Shown piece after piece: positions 5,846-12,804 of a stretch of DNA of 28,841 bases (within the stretch, counting starts at the first letter, position 1; each line of letters begins with the position of its first letter). Source of the stretch: a virus. The stretch lies in IMG/VR virus record IMGVR_UViG_3300009149_000199, positions 1 through 28,841 of that record, one strand, 5' to 3'. The notes under the pieces were generated by a model. That model did no database searches. It saw only the letters and a program-made list of their open reading frames with translations, and was not told the DNA's origin. The position numbers were made by a program, and so were the translations under genes.

Positions 5846-5971
5846 ATGAGGGCTAATTTGGAACCTTCCGGTGAATATAATAAAGAGATTGGAATACGAT
5901 ATACGAAGTGCTTTAAGAGTGGCACAGTGGTGATAGGACTTTGGTACTATATAATAAGGATTGAACTATGA
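5846..5971 (+). CDS. 41-residue hypothetical protein
   Basis: ATG 5846 directly after the previous stop, with AAAGGA about seven bases upstream; its TGA overlaps the helicase ATG. The C-terminal 15 residues are hydrophobic (GTVVIGLWYYIIRIEL) and may lie in or on the membrane. The coupling to the helicase is the main reason to call it. Confidence 0.5.
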   Translation: MRANLEPSGEYNKEIGIRYTKCFKSGTVVIGLWYYIIRIEL

Positions 5972-6975
5972 ATTTAGATGAGAAACGTAAGCAGCAAAGT
6001 GGTATTAGAAGCTTAGGTGATATGAAAAGAAGTGGGCTGATTAGCGGTAAGATAGACCCTACTAAATTTGTTAATGGTCCTGCAAAAATGGATTGCTTAG
6101 TTAGACCTTGGCAGCGTGGTGATATAACTGGAATATTAGCTGGAGCTGGGTCTGGAAAAACTAGTAGTGTTTTATATATTCTAAAACATACTCTAATGAA
6201 CAATCCAGATGGAATAGTTATATTCGTGTCATTAGAAATGACAGCTTCTGAAATAGGAGAAAAATGGTATAAGGCTACAGAAACTTGTCCAGAATTAGCC
6301 GATAGGCTTTATATCATAGAAAATTATGATGAAAATGGAACTTCTAAGAACTTATCTATTAGTGATATAAAAGTTGAATTATTTAATATAAAGGATACAA
6401 TAAATACTACAGTACATGCTTTTGTTATTGATCATTTATTAGAGATAGATTTAAATGGTGGGGTTGATTATAACCCTGTATGTAAGAAAATTAAAGACAT
6501 ATCGGTCGAATTAGATGCCCACTGTTTTTTATTGTCACAAACAACAAAAGGAAAAGGACAAGGTGATGTTCCAGTAAATAAGGACGGTTGTTTTGGAACT
6601 TCTAGATTTGAATGGATTGTAACTAATATATTAACTGTTTTTCAACCATTAAAGCGTGTAGAAAAAGAATGTAATCTTGCTATTATGGGTTGGCAGTATG
6701 CAAAGATTCGTTATAAGAATAAAAACGATAAAGCAAAAGAAGGAATGAATTATTTAATGACGTTTGATTTTGATACTGAGGATTTAGTTGAACTTAATAC
6801 TGCTGAAGTTTCTACATTTAAAATGTATTATGAAAAAGTACTAGAACTTCGTCAAAATGAGGCTAAGTTTAAATCATACCAGTTCAGTCTAGATCGTACC
6901 ATAAAGGGTAAGGATGGAAAAGAAGTTGTATTAAAAGAAACATTTGGTGGAGGATCTCCTGACGATGAACTCTGA
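5968..6975 (+). CDS. Replicative DNA helicase, DnaB/RecA-like core
   Basis: 335 residues, a single RecA-fold domain without the DnaB N-terminal domain. Walker A GAGSGKTS at 59-66, the DnaB-type 'FVSLEMTASEIGEKW' (H1a) at 86-100, Walker B AFVIDH ending in D155, and FLLSQTTKGKG (H3) at 187-197 are all present. Proteins of this type unwind DNA at the fork as hexamers and work with the primase and polymerase found in the same run. Compared with bacterial DnaB (about 470 residues) it is short, as in many phage helicases. Its 3' end is overlapped by 11 bases by a homing-endonuclease gene. Confidence 0.85.
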   Translation: MNLDEKRKQQSGIRSLGDMKRSGLISGKIDPTKFVNGPAKMDCLVRPWQRGDITGILAGAGSGKTSSVLYILKHTLMNNPDGIVIFVSLEMTASEIGEKWYKATETCPELADRLYIIENYDENGTSKNLSISDIKVELFNIKDTINTTVHAFVIDHLLEIDLNGGVDYNPVCKKIKDISVELDAHCFLLSQTTKGKGQGDVPVNKDGCFGTSRFEWIVTNILTVFQPLKRVEKECNLAIMGWQYAKIRYKNKNDKAKEGMNYLMTFDFDTEDLVELNTAEVSTFKMYYEKVLELRQNEAKFKSYQFSLDRTIKGKDGKEVVLKETFGGGSPDDEL

Positions 6976-7531
6976 AAAGTGGAAAGATATTAAAAATTAT
7001 GAAGGGTATTATCAAGTATCTAATAAAGGAAAAGTACGAGGAGTAGCAAGACTGATAAATGGAGGGGGTTCTCAAAATAAAAGATTTATCAAGGAAAAAG
7101 TTCTAAAAAATCATGTAAAACAAAATGGATATTGTCAAGTTAGATTGACTAAAGATGGAATATCAAAAGATTTTTTAGTGCATAGACTAGTAGCTATTTC
7201 TTTTAAAGGTACGATTGAAGGAAGTCCTCATGTTAATCACATAGATGGAAATAAACAGAATAATAAATTAGATAATCTAGAATGGTGTAATACTTTTGAA
7301 AATATGCAGCACGCTTTTGACATTGGTCTAGTTGACAATAGAGGAATAAAAAGTCCCAATAATAAATACTCAGAAGCTCAGATATTATTAGTAAAAAAAC
7401 TCTTGCAAGAAGGTCACAGTAATGTTACAATATCTAAGATGACCGGAGTTAATAGAACTACAGTTTATCGAGTTAAGATTGGAAAACAATGGAGTCATTT
7501 ATTTCAACTCATAGTAGGACTTATTATATGA
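6965..7531 (+). CDS. HNH homing endonuclease with NUMOD4 and C-terminal HTH
   Basis: 188 residues; ATG 6965 sits behind GGAGGATC inside the helicase 3' end. Residues 5-25 (WKDIKNYEGYYQVSNKGKVR) are a NUMOD4 motif. The centre carries the HNH_3 core HRLVAISF ... HVNHIDGNKQNN ... NLEWC. The C-terminal 50 residues (ILLVKKLLQEGHSNVTISKM...) form a DNA-binding HTH. Such free-standing enzymes cut intron-less or endonuclease-free relatives and spread their own gene. No intron is visible in the helicase. It is a selfish insert whose target is probably in or near the helicase gene. Confidence 0.9.
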   Translation: MNSEKWKDIKNYEGYYQVSNKGKVRGVARLINGGGSQNKRFIKEKVLKNHVKQNGYCQVRLTKDGISKDFLVHRLVAISFKGTIEGSPHVNHIDGNKQNNKLDNLEWCNTFENMQHAFDIGLVDNRGIKSPNNKYSEAQILLVKKLLQEGHSNVTISKMTGVNRTTVYRVKIGKQWSHLFQLIVGLII

Positions 7532-7632
7532 AAAATATGACAGAGCTAATCTCTTGGTTTCAGCTCGAATATGCTAAGACTTCGGGGGGGATTCATCTAT
7601 TTACGTTGGGTAGTTTTAATTATGTGCTATAG
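7528..7632 (+). CDS. 34-residue ORF after the homing endonuclease
   Basis: ATG overlaps the endonuclease stop (ATGA) and the frame ends at TAG 7630-7632. The product contains ISWFQLEYAKTSGGIHLF and has no recognised relatives. It may be a real small gene or a fragment left when the endonuclease inserted. Support is limited to the coupling. Confidence 0.35.
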   Translation: MKNMTELISWFQLEYAKTSGGIHLFTLGSFNYVL

Positions 7633-7643
7633 GAGATAAAATT

Positions 7644-7973
7644 ATGAACAGATTTAAAGTAATAATAGACAAGCTTCTACTAGACTATTGGTGGCGTATT
7701 CCTTTCATGAGCTACGATATATCATTTAAGTACGATTTTCCAACTAAGAGACTAATTGACCACTGTTTTGATAATTATGCAGAATCTCAAGAAGAAGACA
7801 TTCTACATATAAGAGGGAAAGTTGCAAAAGTTGCTCACATGTATGCTTATGATTCTACAGTAACCAAGGAAGATCTGAGTTTAATTCATTTAGTATACGA
7901 TACTAGTAATAGAGAAAGAGTTCGACAGATATTATGCAAATTTGTAAGAATGTACTATAATAAAAGGAGTTAA
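7644..7973 (+). CDS. Hypothetical 109-residue protein
   Basis: Good AGGAG site 8 bases before ATG 7644. Rich in Tyr, Arg and Phe with a basic C-terminus (RERVRQILCKFVRMYYNKRS). Helical overall with no catalytic motif. It sits between helicase and primase in the replication run. Function unknown. Confidence 0.7.
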   Translation: MNRFKVIIDKLLLDYWWRIPFMSYDISFKYDFPTKRLIDHCFDNYAESQEEDILHIRGKVAKVAHMYAYDSTVTKEDLSLIHLVYDTSNRERVRQILCKFVRMYYNKRS

Positions 7974-7974
7974 T

Positions 7975-8142
7975 ATGGACTACGAAGATAAAGATGAAGA
8001 TGCTTACAATAAGATGAAAGGTACTTATACTATTCATGTAGAAGGGTGGTACAAATCATCACTTGAACCGTTTCCTAAATATTACGAAAAAGGAGATGAA
8101 ATATTTCTAGATAACGTTAGATACTTTGAGAGAGTAAAATGA
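7975..8142 (+). CDS. 55-residue acidic hypothetical protein
   Basis: AAAGGAG lies 6 bases before ATG 7975, and the TGA overlaps the primase ATG. The N-terminus is very acidic (MDYEDKDEDAY) and is followed by beta-type segments (GTYTIHVEGWYKSS; DEIFLDNVRYFERVK). Strong coupling to the primase gene supports it being real. Function unknown. Confidence 0.6.
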   Translation: MDYEDKDEDAYNKMKGTYTIHVEGWYKSSLEPFPKYYEKGDEIFLDNVRYFERVK

Positions 8143-8993
8143 AACTGAGCGTTTTTCCAGAATCTAAAGCTCACCCTAAAAGTAAGGAAGAAAAGAAGTC
8201 GAACAGCTTTAAAGTTTCTAAACCGTACAAACCACTACTTAAGGAGTTTTCTACTACTGACGAACTTATTGATATAGTGTGTAATAATACATGGTCACCT
8301 TTTGTTTTTAAAGACTATCGTAGAGAATCTGACTTCATTAGTACAGATTTTATAGCATTTGATATTGATTCAGGAATGAGAATAGAAGAATCTGAAAAAG
8401 TAGTACATCAGCTTGATATAGACTGTTTATGTCTTCCAAGTCCAAGCTTTACTGAAGAAGATCACAGGTATAGGCTGATATTCCCATTAGCGAGAACTAT
8501 CACAAATGTTGCCGACTACAAGCAAACGTATTACGACTTAGCCAAGAACTTTCCAGTAGATCCAGCATGCAAAGATGCAGCTAGATTTTACTATGGAAGC
8601 ACTCTAGAATCTGGGTATTTATATGAATCTAAGCTACTAGTACCAATACCTGCTGAGAAGCCTAAAAATAGCGAAATAAAGCGTTTTGAGCACAAAGCTA
8701 ACGTAGTGGTAGGAGAGGACATCGAAGGTCTTGTAGAGTCGCTATATGGCGAACCAAGAACTAAGATACCTGACACTATAGCGTATTTCTTTGAGCATAT
8801 AGGTACTGGATTTCCTGGTGAAATGTACGTAAGATCTAACAGTTTTTTATTCACTTGTGGGCTACTTGGATTAGAATCTGACAGAATTGAAGCTGTATTT
8901 TACGAACTTTATCCGTATGATGTTGACAGTAATGTAAGACATATGGTACAAAAGGTAATAGAAGAAGGTTATGAAGTTAGAGAGGAGATATAA
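8139..8993 (+). CDS. Archaeo-eukaryotic-type (AEP) DNA primase
   Basis: 284 residues. The three AEP motifs can be read: metal-binding D75-x-D77 in FIAFDIDSG; the Ser/His region SFTEEDHRYRLIFPL with H109; and DPACKDAARFYYGS (141-154) carrying the third acidic and Arg-aromatic positions. The C-terminal 100 residues are helical, as in phage prim-pol proteins with an accessory domain. The enzyme makes primers, and perhaps DNA, for the family B polymerase encoded 0.9 kb downstream. No zinc-finger DnaG features are present, so this phage uses AEP priming. Confidence 0.8.
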   Translation: MKLSVFPESKAHPKSKEEKKSNSFKVSKPYKPLLKEFSTTDELIDIVCNNTWSPFVFKDYRRESDFISTDFIAFDIDSGMRIEESEKVVHQLDIDCLCLPSPSFTEEDHRYRLIFPLARTITNVADYKQTYYDLAKNFPVDPACKDAARFYYGSTLESGYLYESKLLVPIPAEKPKNSEIKRFEHKANVVVGEDIEGLVESLYGEPRTKIPDTIAYFFEHIGTGFPGEMYVRSNSFLFTCGLLGLESDRIEAVFYELYPYDVDSNVRHMVQKVIEEGYEVREEI

Positions 8994-9370: not shown

Positions 9371-9456
9371 AGGATTCATCATGTTTTTTACACGGTTTGT
9401 TCTTTTTTACACCACTTCACTTTGAAGTGCAAGGTATTAGAAAAGAAGTAGAAGGT

Positions 9457-9645
9457 ATGGATGACGACTATTTAGTAGACGAGGTGAACTTACTTTGTCC
9501 AGATGATAAGAAGCTTGACGATATAATCTACAGCTACATAACAACTAATAAGTTATCTTCAGGTGACAGAGAAGTACTTATTAATTATTACGTACTTTAT
9601 AATATTGAAGACTACTTGATGATTCTAGAAGAAGAGGAGGTGTAA
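9457..9645 (+). CDS. Small acidic protein, 5' end possibly frameshifted
   Basis: 62 residues from ATG 9457, which has only a poorly spaced AGAAGG in front. It is acidic with a patterned core (DREVLINYYVLYNIEDYLMIL), and its stop forms TAATG with the next gene. A much better start is ATG 9381 behind AAAGGATT, but that frame stops at 9423-9425 after 14 codons. Removing one base from the T6 run at 9403-9408 would join the two into an 87-residue protein starting MFFTRFVLFTPLHFEVQG. Either a sequence error, a real mutation or programmed slippage could explain this. Confidence 0.6.
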   Translation: MDDDYLVDEVNLLCPDDKKLDDIIYSYITTNKLSSGDREVLINYYVLYNIEDYLMILEEEEV

Positions 9646-9860
9646 TGCTATACATCGATGACCAAACTGCATATAATGACTATAAAGAATACCTGAGCAC
9701 TTCTCCAGAGATTATATCAGTAGAGGATAACGTCATTACTACGAGAGATTACATTGTAAAAGTTAACGATGAATACTCTGACATTATTGACTTAGTGAAG
9801 CCTAAAAGTACTCACAGTAATATTATAGAAAACTCAGGTTATAAATTCAAAACGTATTAG
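9645..9860 (+). CDS. Hypothetical 71-residue protein before DNA polymerase
   Basis: Starts in a TAATG junction behind GAGGAGG. Acidic, with mixed strands and helices (EIISVEDNVITTRDYIVKVN) and no motif. It ends 7 bases before the polymerase ATG. Function unknown. Confidence 0.65.
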   Translation: MLYIDDQTAYNDYKEYLSTSPEIISVEDNVITTRDYIVKVNDEYSDIIDLVKPKSTHSNIIENSGYKFKTY

Positions 9861-9867
9861 GAAACTT

Positions 9868-11937
9868 ATGGACGCTAAATACATAGACAATGATTATATC
9901 TACGACTTAGAAACTTACCCTAACTTATTTTCAATGTGTGTTATTTCATCAGACGGTAAAGATGGTCACATATTTGAGATATCTGATAGAAAGGATAATA
10001 GAGAACTACTGTTTGAATATCTAGACGATCTTGAAGAAAAAAGAGCAAGGTTGATTGGGTTCAACAATTTAGCTTTCGATTATCCAATCCTACATTTCAT
10101 TATGAACAATAGAGATTGTACCGTAACTCAGATTTACAAGTTGGCTCAAAAGATCATTGCAACTTTAAGAGAGGATAGATTTGCAAGTGGAATAAAAGAT
10201 GTAAAGATTGCTCAAGTAGATCTATTCAAATTAAACCACTTTGATAATGTTGCAAAGAGTACTTTTTTAAAGGTACTTCAGTTTAATATGAAGATAGATA
10301 ACTTACAAGAACTTCCTTATCCGTTCGATACGAATCTAACAATCCCTCAAATGCAGCATATTGTAGAGTATAACGCAAATGATGTAGTAGCTACATTAAT
10401 GTTCTATTATGAAAATATTGGAGCTTTGCAACTTAGAGCGTCACTTTCTGAAAAGTATGGTATGAACTTCACAAATGCTTCGGACTCTAAAATAGGTGGT
10501 GAGATATTCATTCAAGAGCTAGAGAGAGTGAAGAAGGGATCATGTTACACTTGGAAGAAAGGAAGACGTAGTATTAGACAAACAAAGCGTAAGGTCATTC
10601 ATTTACAAGAAGTCATCCTACCTTACATAAAGTTTGAACGACCTGAGTTCCAAGCTGTCCTAGATTGGTTTAAGCTTCAGAGTATCTCCGAAACAAAAGG
10701 TGTCTTCTCTGATATTCTAGAATCCGATCTTCATGATGTCGCAAAATATGCAAACCTAGTAACGAAGAAATCTAAGAAATTAGCTGGAGAACCCTCCGAA
10801 GAAGAGATCAAAGAGTTTATGAAGGAGAAGCCTTTTTGTGAGGTATTAAGGAATGAACTCAAAAGTGGAAAAGTGTCCTACTATTTCACATGGAAAGTAG
10901 CAAAAGCCCTAAATGTTGTCATAAACGATCATGAATATGTGTTCGGAGTAGGTGGTATTCACTCAAGTGTGGAACCTACACTGGTAGAATCAGATGATGA
11001 ATATGTTATAATTGATTTAGATGTAGCTTCTTATTATCCGAATCTAGCAATAAAAAATACGCTATATCCAAAACATTTAAGTGACCAATTTTGCAAGACA
11101 TATGAAGCGCTGTATGAAGAAAGAAAAACTCACGCTAAAGGTACGCCTGAGAACAGTAGTATAAAACTTGCTCTAAATGCAACGTATGGTAACTCGAATA
11201 ATCAATACTCACCTTTCTATGATCCTCAGTATACTATGGCTATAACGGTCAATGGTCAATTATCGCTATGTATGCTACTGGAACAGATATTGAAATTAGA
11301 CGGAGCAACTTCAGTTCAATCAAATACAGATGGTATCACATTCAGAGTAAAGAGATCGGACTCTGACACTGTCGATAGGTTGACGAGAGAATGGGAAGAG
11401 GTGACGAAACTTGAGATGGAACGAAACGATTACTCTAGAATGTATATAAGGGACGTAAATTCCTACGTAGCTGTATATGAAGGGTCAGGTAAGTCTAAAT
11501 CGAAAGGTGCTTATGAAATTACAGATCAGCATCATAAAAATCAATCTATGAGAGTTGTTCAGAAAGCAGTTAAAGCTTTCTTAACTTATGGTACACCTGT
11601 AGAAGACTTTATATATAGTCATGATGATAAATACGACTTTATGTTAAGAGTGAAGTTACCTAAAGCTTATAAATTAGTCAGCGTGGACGATGAAGGTGTT
11701 GAGCAAAAGGAGCAGAATGTTACTAGATATTATGTGTCAAATTCTGATAAGGCTAAGGTTCTGATTAAAATAATGCCTCCACTTAAGGATAAAACTGAAG
11801 ATAGACGAAATAATATTGAAGTAAACAGAAAGACAGTGGTTTGTAATGATATAAATGATTATATTGGTGAAATTGACTATGATTATTATGTCGAACAAGC
11901 ATCAAAACTAGTAGACATATTTTCTCCAGAAGAATAA
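9868..11937 (+). CDS. Family B DNA polymerase with 3'-5' exonuclease
   Basis: 689 residues, probable replicative polymerase. Proofreading motifs: Exo I YDLETYP (D13, E15), Exo II GFNNLAFDYPIL, Exo III EYNANDVV. The link region has GVGGIHSS, matching the YxGG-type motif. Polymerase motifs: A DVASYYP (D385-P391), B KLALNATYGN (K433-G441), and C SNTDGI (N486-T-D488). Motif C reads NTD where most family B enzymes have DTD; D488, the main metal ligand position, is kept. The length lies between protein-primed phage polymerases and T4-like ones. The presence of a primase and helicase argues for primer-dependent synthesis. A terminator hairpin follows the gene. Confidence 0.92.
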   Translation: MDAKYIDNDYIYDLETYPNLFSMCVISSDGKDGHIFEISDRKDNRELLFEYLDDLEEKRARLIGFNNLAFDYPILHFIMNNRDCTVTQIYKLAQKIIATLREDRFASGIKDVKIAQVDLFKLNHFDNVAKSTFLKVLQFNMKIDNLQELPYPFDTNLTIPQMQHIVEYNANDVVATLMFYYENIGALQLRASLSEKYGMNFTNASDSKIGGEIFIQELERVKKGSCYTWKKGRRSIRQTKRKVIHLQEVILPYIKFERPEFQAVLDWFKLQSISETKGVFSDILESDLHDVAKYANLVTKKSKKLAGEPSEEEIKEFMKEKPFCEVLRNELKSGKVSYYFTWKVAKALNVVINDHEYVFGVGGIHSSVEPTLVESDDEYVIIDLDVASYYPNLAIKNTLYPKHLSDQFCKTYEALYEERKTHAKGTPENSSIKLALNATYGNSNNQYSPFYDPQYTMAITVNGQLSLCMLLEQILKLDGATSVQSNTDGITFRVKRSDSDTVDRLTREWEEVTKLEMERNDYSRMYIRDVNSYVAVYEGSGKSKSKGAYEITDQHHKNQSMRVVQKAVKAFLTYGTPVEDFIYSHDDKYDFMLRVKLPKAYKLVSVDDEGVEQKEQNVTRYYVSNSDKAKVLIKIMPPLKDKTEDRRNNIEVNRKTVVCNDINDYIGEIDYDYYVEQASKLVDIFSPEE

Positions 11938-11950
11938 TAATGAATTAACT

Positions 11951-11983
11951 CTACATATAGAGGAGTCGCAGTAAGATATGTAG
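11951..11983 (+). other. 8-bp inverted repeat downstream of DNA polymerase
   Basis: CTACATAT (11951-11958) and ATATGTAG (11976-11983) are exact reverse complements around a 17-base loop that contains GAGGAG. It lies 14 bases after the polymerase stop and just before a stronger terminator-like hairpin. It may protect or shape the 3' end of the transcript. Confidence 0.5.
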
Positions 11984-11988
11984 TTATA

Positions 11989-12046
11989 TTCCCCATCCAG
12001 ATGCGCTTATGAGGCTGGGTCACCAGAGGAGGGTGGGGAACTTTTT
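11989..12046 (+). terminator. Long-stem terminator of the replication transcript
   Basis: TTCCCCATCC (11989-11998) pairs with GGGTGGGGAA (12031-12040), ten pairs with one T-G wobble, and is followed by CTTTTT (12041-12046). The 32-base loop holds a small inner hairpin CTGG-GTCA-CCAG (12015-12026). Its shape and place after the polymerase stop fit a Rho-independent terminator, although the loop is unusually large, so a structured RNA element is the alternative. Confidence 0.7.
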
Positions 12047-12057
12047 AAAGAACACTA

Positions 12058-12086
12058 TTGACAAGATTTAAGTAATATGAAATAAT
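12058..12086 (+). promoter_or_regulatory. Strong sigma-70-type promoter for the intergenic RNA
   Basis: TTGACA (12058-12063), a 17-base spacer, then AATAAT (12081-12086): a perfect -35 box and a 5-of-6 -10 box at ideal spacing. It starts 12 bases after the terminator T-run. The predicted start site near 12092-12094 falls at the 5' side of the stem TAAGGC/GCCTTA, so it would launch the RNA described next and probably the genes from 12367 on. Confidence 0.7.
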
Positions 12087-12091
12087 GAGTT

Positions 12092-12351
12092 AAGGCGTAA
12101 CCTGCCTGACAATAGGGATAGACCTGTGAAGCCTTATATTATGAGTTAATTCCATATAACGGTGAGATTAAGTGGTTAGTGGGGGGACCCTGCATGGGAA
12201 CATATTTTATCGGGCGGTATGCACGGATAGACAATAGGTAGATGCTTTCTAGATAATCTCTACTGACGATATTGAAGGGGCTGATACTAATGGCTAAAGA
12301 AGCACCAGTTAAAGACACTTCGAGGGGGTTCGAATCCTCTGGGTCCGACCA
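12092..12351 (+). ncRNA. Candidate structured non-coding RNA with tRNA-like 3' end
   Basis: The region has no convincing coding frame but a promoter at its 5' end and many stems: TAAGGC 12091-12096 with GCCTTA 12131-12136; TGCAT 12191-12195 with ATGCA 12219-12223; CAATA-GTAGA 12232-12242 with TCTAC and TATTG 12259-12274; GGGGCT 12277-12282 with AGCACC 12301-12306 (one mismatch); and the T arm near the 3' end. GGACCC 12185-12190 can pair with the acceptor strand GGGTCC 12341-12346, closing a cloverleaf-like domain. T6 follows CCA. The topology recalls tmRNA, but I find no tag frame ending in Ala-Ala and no tmRNA D-loop, so it is left unnamed. Confidence 0.4.
12322..12351 (+). tRNA. 3' half of a tRNA (T arm, acceptor strand, CCA); 5' half not found
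   Basis: GGGGG-TTCGAAT-CCTCT (12324-12340) is a T arm with a textbook TTCGAAT loop; two of five stem pairs are G-U. GGGTCCG (12341-12347) is an acceptor 3' strand, followed by discriminator A and CCA (12349-12351). A G72 implying C1, together with the ending CGACCA, is typical of bacterial tRNA-Pro. The matching 5' strand CGGACCC is absent; the closest is GGACCC at 12185, 140 bases upstream. It may be the tRNA-like end of a larger RNA, a tRNA remnant, or an attP-type copy of a host tRNA 3' end. Confidence 0.5.
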
Positions 12352-12366
12352 TTTTTTAGGAGAAGT

Positions 12367-12804
12367 ATGCTGCACAGAATGTACCTATTCATTACAAAGT
12401 TTTTCTACTACGGATACGCTGGAACTAAGTGCGTTGACTTTGATGCTAGTTGCATCCACAATCTTATATATGCGCACATGAATCGTGTCAATAAGTTCAT
12501 GAAGTCTGACAAAACACATCTAGTATGGAATGACGATCCAAATACTAAAGGTATGCGAAAGTTAGCAGAGTTTACGGAACTTAGTAGAAGGATGGCGGAG
12601 AATGAGATGCAAGATAATCACTACTTTGGAATAGTATGTGATAAATATAGAAGCGATACTGAGTGTTTCCTTGACAGAATTAATGATCCAGAATATCGTA
12701 AAGAATCTAGGATTGCAATGAAAAAAGATAGGATGAAGGTTGACCAATTAACAAAAAGGTATTATACTTTATTACAGGAAGAAGTGTCGGGATTTTGGGA
12801 TTAA
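12367..12804 (+). CDS. Hypothetical 145-residue protein
   Basis: ATG 12367 with AGGAGA just upstream, placed right after the T6 run that follows the tRNA-like CCA. The N-terminus is aromatic-rich (LFITKFFYYGYAG) and not a clear signal peptide. The rest is helical and charged (EFTELSRRMAENEMQDNHY). Four Cys are scattered. No family is recognised. The start decides against an overlapping TTG frame beginning at 12272. Confidence 0.7.
   Translation: MLHRMYLFITKFFYYGYAGTKCVDFDASCIHNLIYAHMNRVNKFMKSDKTHLVWNDDPNTKGMRKLAEFTELSRRMAENEMQDNHYFGIVCDKYRSDTECFLDRINDPEYRKESRIAMKKDRMKVDQLTKRYYTLLQEEVSGFWD

Follow-up and report, generated by a model that had tools for sequence, protein, structure and literature searches.

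The preQ1-I riboswitch is a compact H-type pseudoknot. In phage HK022, the structured put RNAs (putL and putR, ~70 nt each, two copies per genome) lie after the early promoters, one of them just downstream of its promoter, and bind RNA polymerase (PMC9378689). In phages T4 and RB69, the gene 32 translational operator is a leader pseudoknot RNA near replication genes, with a stretch of weaker structure between it and the start codon; it controls one gene, encoding the SSB protein, and recruits that gene's own product (PMC535899). Here we describe an RNA with partial likeness to all three, located in a 28,841-nucleotide stretch of viral DNA (IMG/VR record IMGVR_UViG_3300009149_000199, positions 1 to 28,841; hereafter the window), where positions 12092-12179 appear to belong to a family of phage RNAs absent from Rfam 15.

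As in preQ1-I, the loop of a small hairpin pairs with a segment further along the RNA, and the element precedes metabolic genes, but this RNA matches no Rfam riboswitch model. It also shares with the gene 32 operator the position of a leader pseudoknot near phage replication genes and the less structured stretch that follows. Unlike that operator, however, it precedes many different genes, across phages with unrelated polymerases, and these differing downstream genes speak against an operator of the gene 32 type. The likeness to put lies in compact members of ~50 nt, in the position of some members at a promoter and in two contigs carrying two copies each. Whereas put consists of two stem-loops and a short triplex, the new family consists of an H-type pseudoknot and a hairpin with a GCUA loop. 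Our family model R1 found no match in HK022 (L219), and membership in put is therefore not claimed.

The locus lies between the polymerase stop codon and a 145-aa gene, an interval of 429 bases without a plausible gene (Table 1). An ORF scan detected no frame of at least 80 aa between 11937 and 12367, in agreement with the initial annotation, which had described the region as gene-free. The near-consensus promoter and the preceding polymerase terminator proposed there were both recovered, the promoter agreeing with the consensus at 11 of 12 positions. The region forms a GC-rich island (45%, versus 34% for the whole window) that ranks among the top 260-nt values of the window. The predicted transcription start, ~12093, falls where the conserved hairpin begins, a coincidence also seen in L217. 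The segment AATAATGAGTTAA, which covers the -10 region and the RNA start (12081-12093), is nearly repeated at 11936-11948, at the polymerase stop, and at 12138-12149, within the RNA.

Table 1. Features of the region downstream of the polymerase gene in the window
Feature	Position	Strand	Basis or remark
689-aa DNA polymerase gene	9868-11937		PHROG DNA polymerase, Pfam PolB-type exonuclease
Terminator-like stem CCCCATCC/GGGTGGGG with AACTTTTT T-run, 3' of the polymerase gene	11989-12046	+	consensus match only
Sigma-70-like promoter, TTGACA-N17-AATAAT	12058-12086	+	consensus match only, 11/12 positions
Conserved hairpin P2, AGGC-GUAACCU-GCCU, with invariant-type loop	12093-12107	+	model match and covariation
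UAACC, predicted pseudoknot 5' strand	12098-12102	+	
Variable domain within the pseudoknot loop	12108-12169	+	
Conserved 3' word AAGTGGTTAG; GGUUA at 12174-12178 is the pseudoknot 3' strand	12170-12179	+	
GGACCC, acceptor 5' strand of the initial annotation, can pair with 12341-12346	12185-12190	+	probably chance
tRNA-Pro-like 3' half: T-arm, acceptor 3' strand, A73, CCA	12324-12351	+	
T6, immediately 5' of AGGAGAAG, the ribosome site for the 145-aa gene	12352-12357	+	weak terminator-like match
145-aa gene of unknown function, common to the window, L004, L002 and L085	12367-12804	+	

At the same place in the related contig L004 we found a GC-rich non-coding stretch sharing the words AAGGCG..ACCTGCCT with the window, a similarity that is weak when taken alone (38 of 500 shuffles were equally good). 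Scanning IMG/VR with TWAAGGCGNNACCTGCCT returned 11 matches. Those in intergenic positions were L004 (recovered as L089), L090, L093, L096, L097 and L099, and all six share, 50-100 bases downstream, another word that reads AAAGTGGTTAGG or resembles it. A wider IMG/VR scan added L143, L188 and L158, and a pattern restricted to the 3' block (GTGGTTAGGNTGRYRRGCTAYYR) found L085/L086, which are the window's own relatives, together with L211, L213, L214/L215, L216, L217 and L218. All matches to this last pattern carry GUAACCU in the loop of an upstream hairpin, although the pattern did not require it. While members obtained with the first pattern were selected for the hairpin, the two independent patterns converge, the matches to the 5' word having the 3' word and those to the 3' block having the 5' hairpin, which supports a family. 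It comprises at least ~17 uncultured phage contigs, two of which contain two copies (one is the contig of L211, with L225 as its other copy). Among 50,697 phage records, none matched the 3' block convincingly, blastn searches of phages, plasmids and 86 loci with the entire region as query returned chance or tRNA matches only, and no description of this RNA was found in the open-access literature. The family appears to be undescribed both there and in Rfam 15, and to be known only from uncultured phages.

Several observations place the window in this family. A model built without the window matches it at 12088-12120 (22.3 bits, E = 5.8e-6), the 3' word alone reaching a non-significant 3.5 bits with the same model. 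A loose hairpin-plus-pseudoknot pattern occurs once in the window, at this site, against 0.0125 occurrences expected. Both elements that define the family are present, namely, a 4-bp covarying hairpin with the loop GNNACCU (12093-12107) and the word GUGGNNAG, whose GGNNA pairs with the loop at 5/5 positions (12170-12179); the UAACC of the loop can pair with GGUUA 72 bases downstream. The hairpin with a GCUA loop that follows the pseudoknot in most members is absent from the window, as it is from L004 and L225, and we therefore regard the window as a variant without it.

The helices vary among members while remaining paired. The P2 stem is GGC/GCC in most members and GGU/ACC, CUA/UAG, ACUU/AAGU or AGC/GCU elsewhere; the loops UGACC, ACACC and UCACC are matched by downstream GGCCA, GGUGA and GGUGA, respectively; and the stem of the GCUA hairpin occurs as GACGA/UCGUU, GGCGG/CCGCC or GAUAA/UUAUC. 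Double changes were observed at 4/4 pairs of the conserved hairpin, at 5/5 pairs of the GCUA hairpin and at one pseudoknot pair, where A-U is replaced by C-G or G-C in four members. Across the hairpin and the pseudoknot, 96-100% of alignment cells are paired; the pseudoknot has an A-C or A-A mismatch in L090/L093 and L004. None of 500 shuffles reached the covariation score, and slid versions scored far lower, in alignments that were joined by hand across the variable domain. This domain ranges from ~4 nt (L213) to ~110 nt (L217), and compact members occupy only ~50 nt between two genes. A long and distinct variable domain (CGAGAGTGTAAA..GATATCCGT.AGAGCGTTAGGAGA) is common to L085 (5140-5330) and L211 (840-1070), suggesting that the pseudoknot loop holds exchangeable or lineage-specific domains. 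Only about half of the members have a T-rich tail after the GCUA hairpin, and a CCUCC motif that could sequester a Shine-Dalgarno sequence follows the hairpin in some members only.

All inspected members lie between genes of the same strand, and replication or dNTP genes are frequent among these neighbours. The RNA directly follows polA in L004 and L225 and an unrelated polB in the window, a synteny that strengthens the assignment of the window to the family, and polA is next to it or neighbouring in L096, L099, L143 and L214. Other neighbours include genes for a ribonucleotide reductase small chain (L085), a dNMP kinase (L217), a dCMP deaminase (L004), a ParB/methylase protein (L216), an SSB-like protein (L188) and a holin (L090/L093), as well as unknowns. 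A good promoter stands 5' of the RNA in the window, L085, L211 and L217, while other members sit in mid-operon without one, and the distance from the RNA to the next start codon varies widely. The loci of the window and L004 share genes on both sides of the RNA, with an 82-aa ORF 76% identical and the 145-aa protein 69% identical. L002, which is the closest contig by its polymerase (80% identical), has small ORFs at this position and no such RNA. Between positions 9397-12804 of the window and 468-4438 of L004, a PolB-type polymerase faces a family A polymerase within related flanks, and, as judged from the sequences, unrelated replicative polymerases have been swapped at this one place. Elsewhere in the window (5968-8993), the end of a DnaB_C-like ORF is overlapped by an ORF for a NUMOD4/HNH homing-type endonuclease (6944-7531), and the ORF that comes next, 8139-8993, has a primase/helicase PHROG match, as if the helicase gene had been split or invaded.

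The initial annotation had proposed a single structured RNA with at least five stems, ending in a tRNA-like 3' half closed by GGACCC. Its 3' end was read correctly: 12324-12351 is GGGGG-TTCGAAT-CCTCT-GGGTCCG-A-CCA, followed by T6. The covariance-model test that it proposed, for tmRNA, tRNA, group I intron and RNase P, gave no match. At the gathering threshold, Rfam 15 has no family that matches the window or its relatives, and at E <=10 a single chance snoRNA match appeared and nothing else, which sets aside group I and group II introns, RNase P and every other Rfam 15 family. The full cloverleaf of a tRNA (D-arm, anticodon arm and 7-bp acceptor) is absent, with ARAGORN and the tRNA model both negative, and no tmRNA is recognised by Rfam or by ARAGORN at normal thresholds, so that "neither tRNA nor tmRNA" stands. 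With lowered thresholds, ARAGORN places a tmRNA or an intron-containing tRNA exactly at 12184-12351. When the interior was shuffled and the acceptor and T-arm were kept, however, the controls gave a weak tmRNA in 25-39 of 300 cases (8-13%) and an intron-containing tRNA in 164 of 300, and the cloverleaf-like domain is therefore no evidence of design. An intact, intron-bearing, permuted or low-scoring tRNA or tmRNA is accordingly not found above chance by ARAGORN, even with introns allowed and thresholds lowered. The many stems were not borne out by folding either, as 12092-12357 (-64.7 kcal/mol) is less stable than the mean of its dinucleotide shuffles (z = +0.81), and the proposed tRNA-like domain, 12180-12354, is at shuffle level (z = -0.54). 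Fold energy is nevertheless uninformative here, since z is near 0 for these segments and for family members alike. The annotation's covariation test in relatives, on the other hand, did reveal conserved covarying stems, but at 12092-12179, a hairpin and pseudoknot that it had overlooked. It thus located a real non-coding RNA on partly wrong grounds, the conserved part being the 5' 90 bases. A promoter-driven, non-coding, structured phage RNA is supported; the tRNA-like end as a part of it is not, as the 16 other members lack it.

What, then, is the tRNA-Pro-like end? A T-arm, acceptor and CCA in this arrangement are expected 0.0115 times per random window of this composition, and this improbability, together with the 6-bp helix that GGACCC and GGGUCC could form, speaks for a single RNA of ~165-260 nt whose functional tRNA-like end is processed by RNase P/Z. 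We consider such an RNA quite improbable. No T-arm lies within 500 nt of the RNA in any of the 16 other members, G would face G in the first acceptor pair, the fold energy is at shuffle level and controls with a shuffled interior are likewise called as tRNA or tmRNA; the pairing of GGACCC is possible, but the closure of a cloverleaf by it is not supported by an interior at shuffle level. RNase P/Z processing or aminoacylation would be favoured solely by the T-arm and CCA. The nearest look-alikes are tRNA 3' ends, all weak BLAST matches. Thus, 12324-12354 resembles GGAGGTTCGAATCCTCT...CCGACCATTT of a Paracoccus sequence, with an acceptor of the C1-G72 type, A73 and CCA; this weakly matching sequence is unannotated, lies on a plasmid and reads as an intact tRNA-Pro(CGG), whereas the window end lacks the 5' half, the D-arm and the anticodon arm of a tRNA-Pro. 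Among the phage sequences that match best is an annotated attachment site in tRNA-Pro(TGG), as would suit an attP core in a temperate phage that uses the 3' end of a host tRNA-Pro gene. This reading is improbable, as neither the window nor nine related contigs contain an integrase (although these records are fragments) and the exact end is absent from 84,980 species genomes. The tRNA-like end is probably not part of the conserved RNA but a remnant, left by a former tRNA gene or by a recombination junction. A short frame (MKGLILMAKEAPVKDTS..., 12272-12481) crosses it and enters the next gene out of frame; it is possibly a truncated gene start left by the event that imported the tRNA piece.

For the conserved part itself, a trans-acting phage small RNA of ~90-260 nt, binding a host protein or mRNAs and terminated by the GCUA hairpin and T-tail, would suit the promoters of the window, L085, L211 and L217, the T-rich tail in about half of the members and the strong sequence conservation in differing gene contexts. 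Many members, however, lie inside operons with neither promoter nor T-tail, compact members fill only ~50 nt between two genes and some contigs have two copies, which makes this reading unlikely. Coding of a short peptide by the conserved 3' block, in place of structure, can be considered very improbable. Frame 1 does read VVRLTSYR or a close relative in 12/12 members with the GCUA hairpin and, in L096, L085 and L099, continues in frame in the direction of the following gene. Yet 6/8 distinct codon changes are non-synonymous while the pairing of the hairpin is kept, the peptide is not kept in L090/L093, L004, L158 or the window, and most of the bases concerned are fixed by the search pattern itself. 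Same-strand neighbours, mid-operon members, contigs with two copies, varying distances and T-tails in only part of the members fit an element that acts in cis and needs no set spacing from a ribosome site. On balance, we favour as reasonably likely that 12092-12179 is a pseudoknot RNA of a new family, a cis-acting leader or an element between cistrons, with the tRNA-Pro-like end as a separate relic.

Under this cis-acting reading, the 7-base loop GUAACCU would pair with the downstream GGUUA and form an H-type pseudoknot that carries the variable domain in its loop. In the phage of the window, the RNA would have its own promoter and its transcript would begin with the first base of the hairpin, between the polymerase gene and the next operon, so that the RNA could condition in cis the expression of the genes that follow. 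The folded RNA may bind a conserved partner, for example the transcribing host RNA polymerase, and thereby allow read-through into these genes. We infer this mechanism by analogy with put RNA, which on its own suppresses pausing and termination via the zinc-binding domain of the RNA polymerase beta' subunit, and we place it, as a tentative choice, ahead of translational control, ligand sensing and mRNA processing. It is doubtful that the RNA represents an undescribed class, distributed among unrelated uncultured phages, whose compact pseudoknot binds the host transcription machinery or a nucleotide-related ligand to set the expression of replication and dNTP genes, with the tRNA-Pro end of the window acquired in addition as a processing or stability signal.

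Non-coding space is sparse in phages, and this RNA, conserved in sequence and structure, occupies the same position beside unrelated polymerases, of family A in some contigs and of family B in the window, and recurs close to replication and nucleotide genes in different phages, which points to a genuine regulatory function. Were it to sense a ligand, it would constitute a phage riboswitch class; if it acts as put does, antitermination by RNA alone would be far commoner than the few lambdoid cases.
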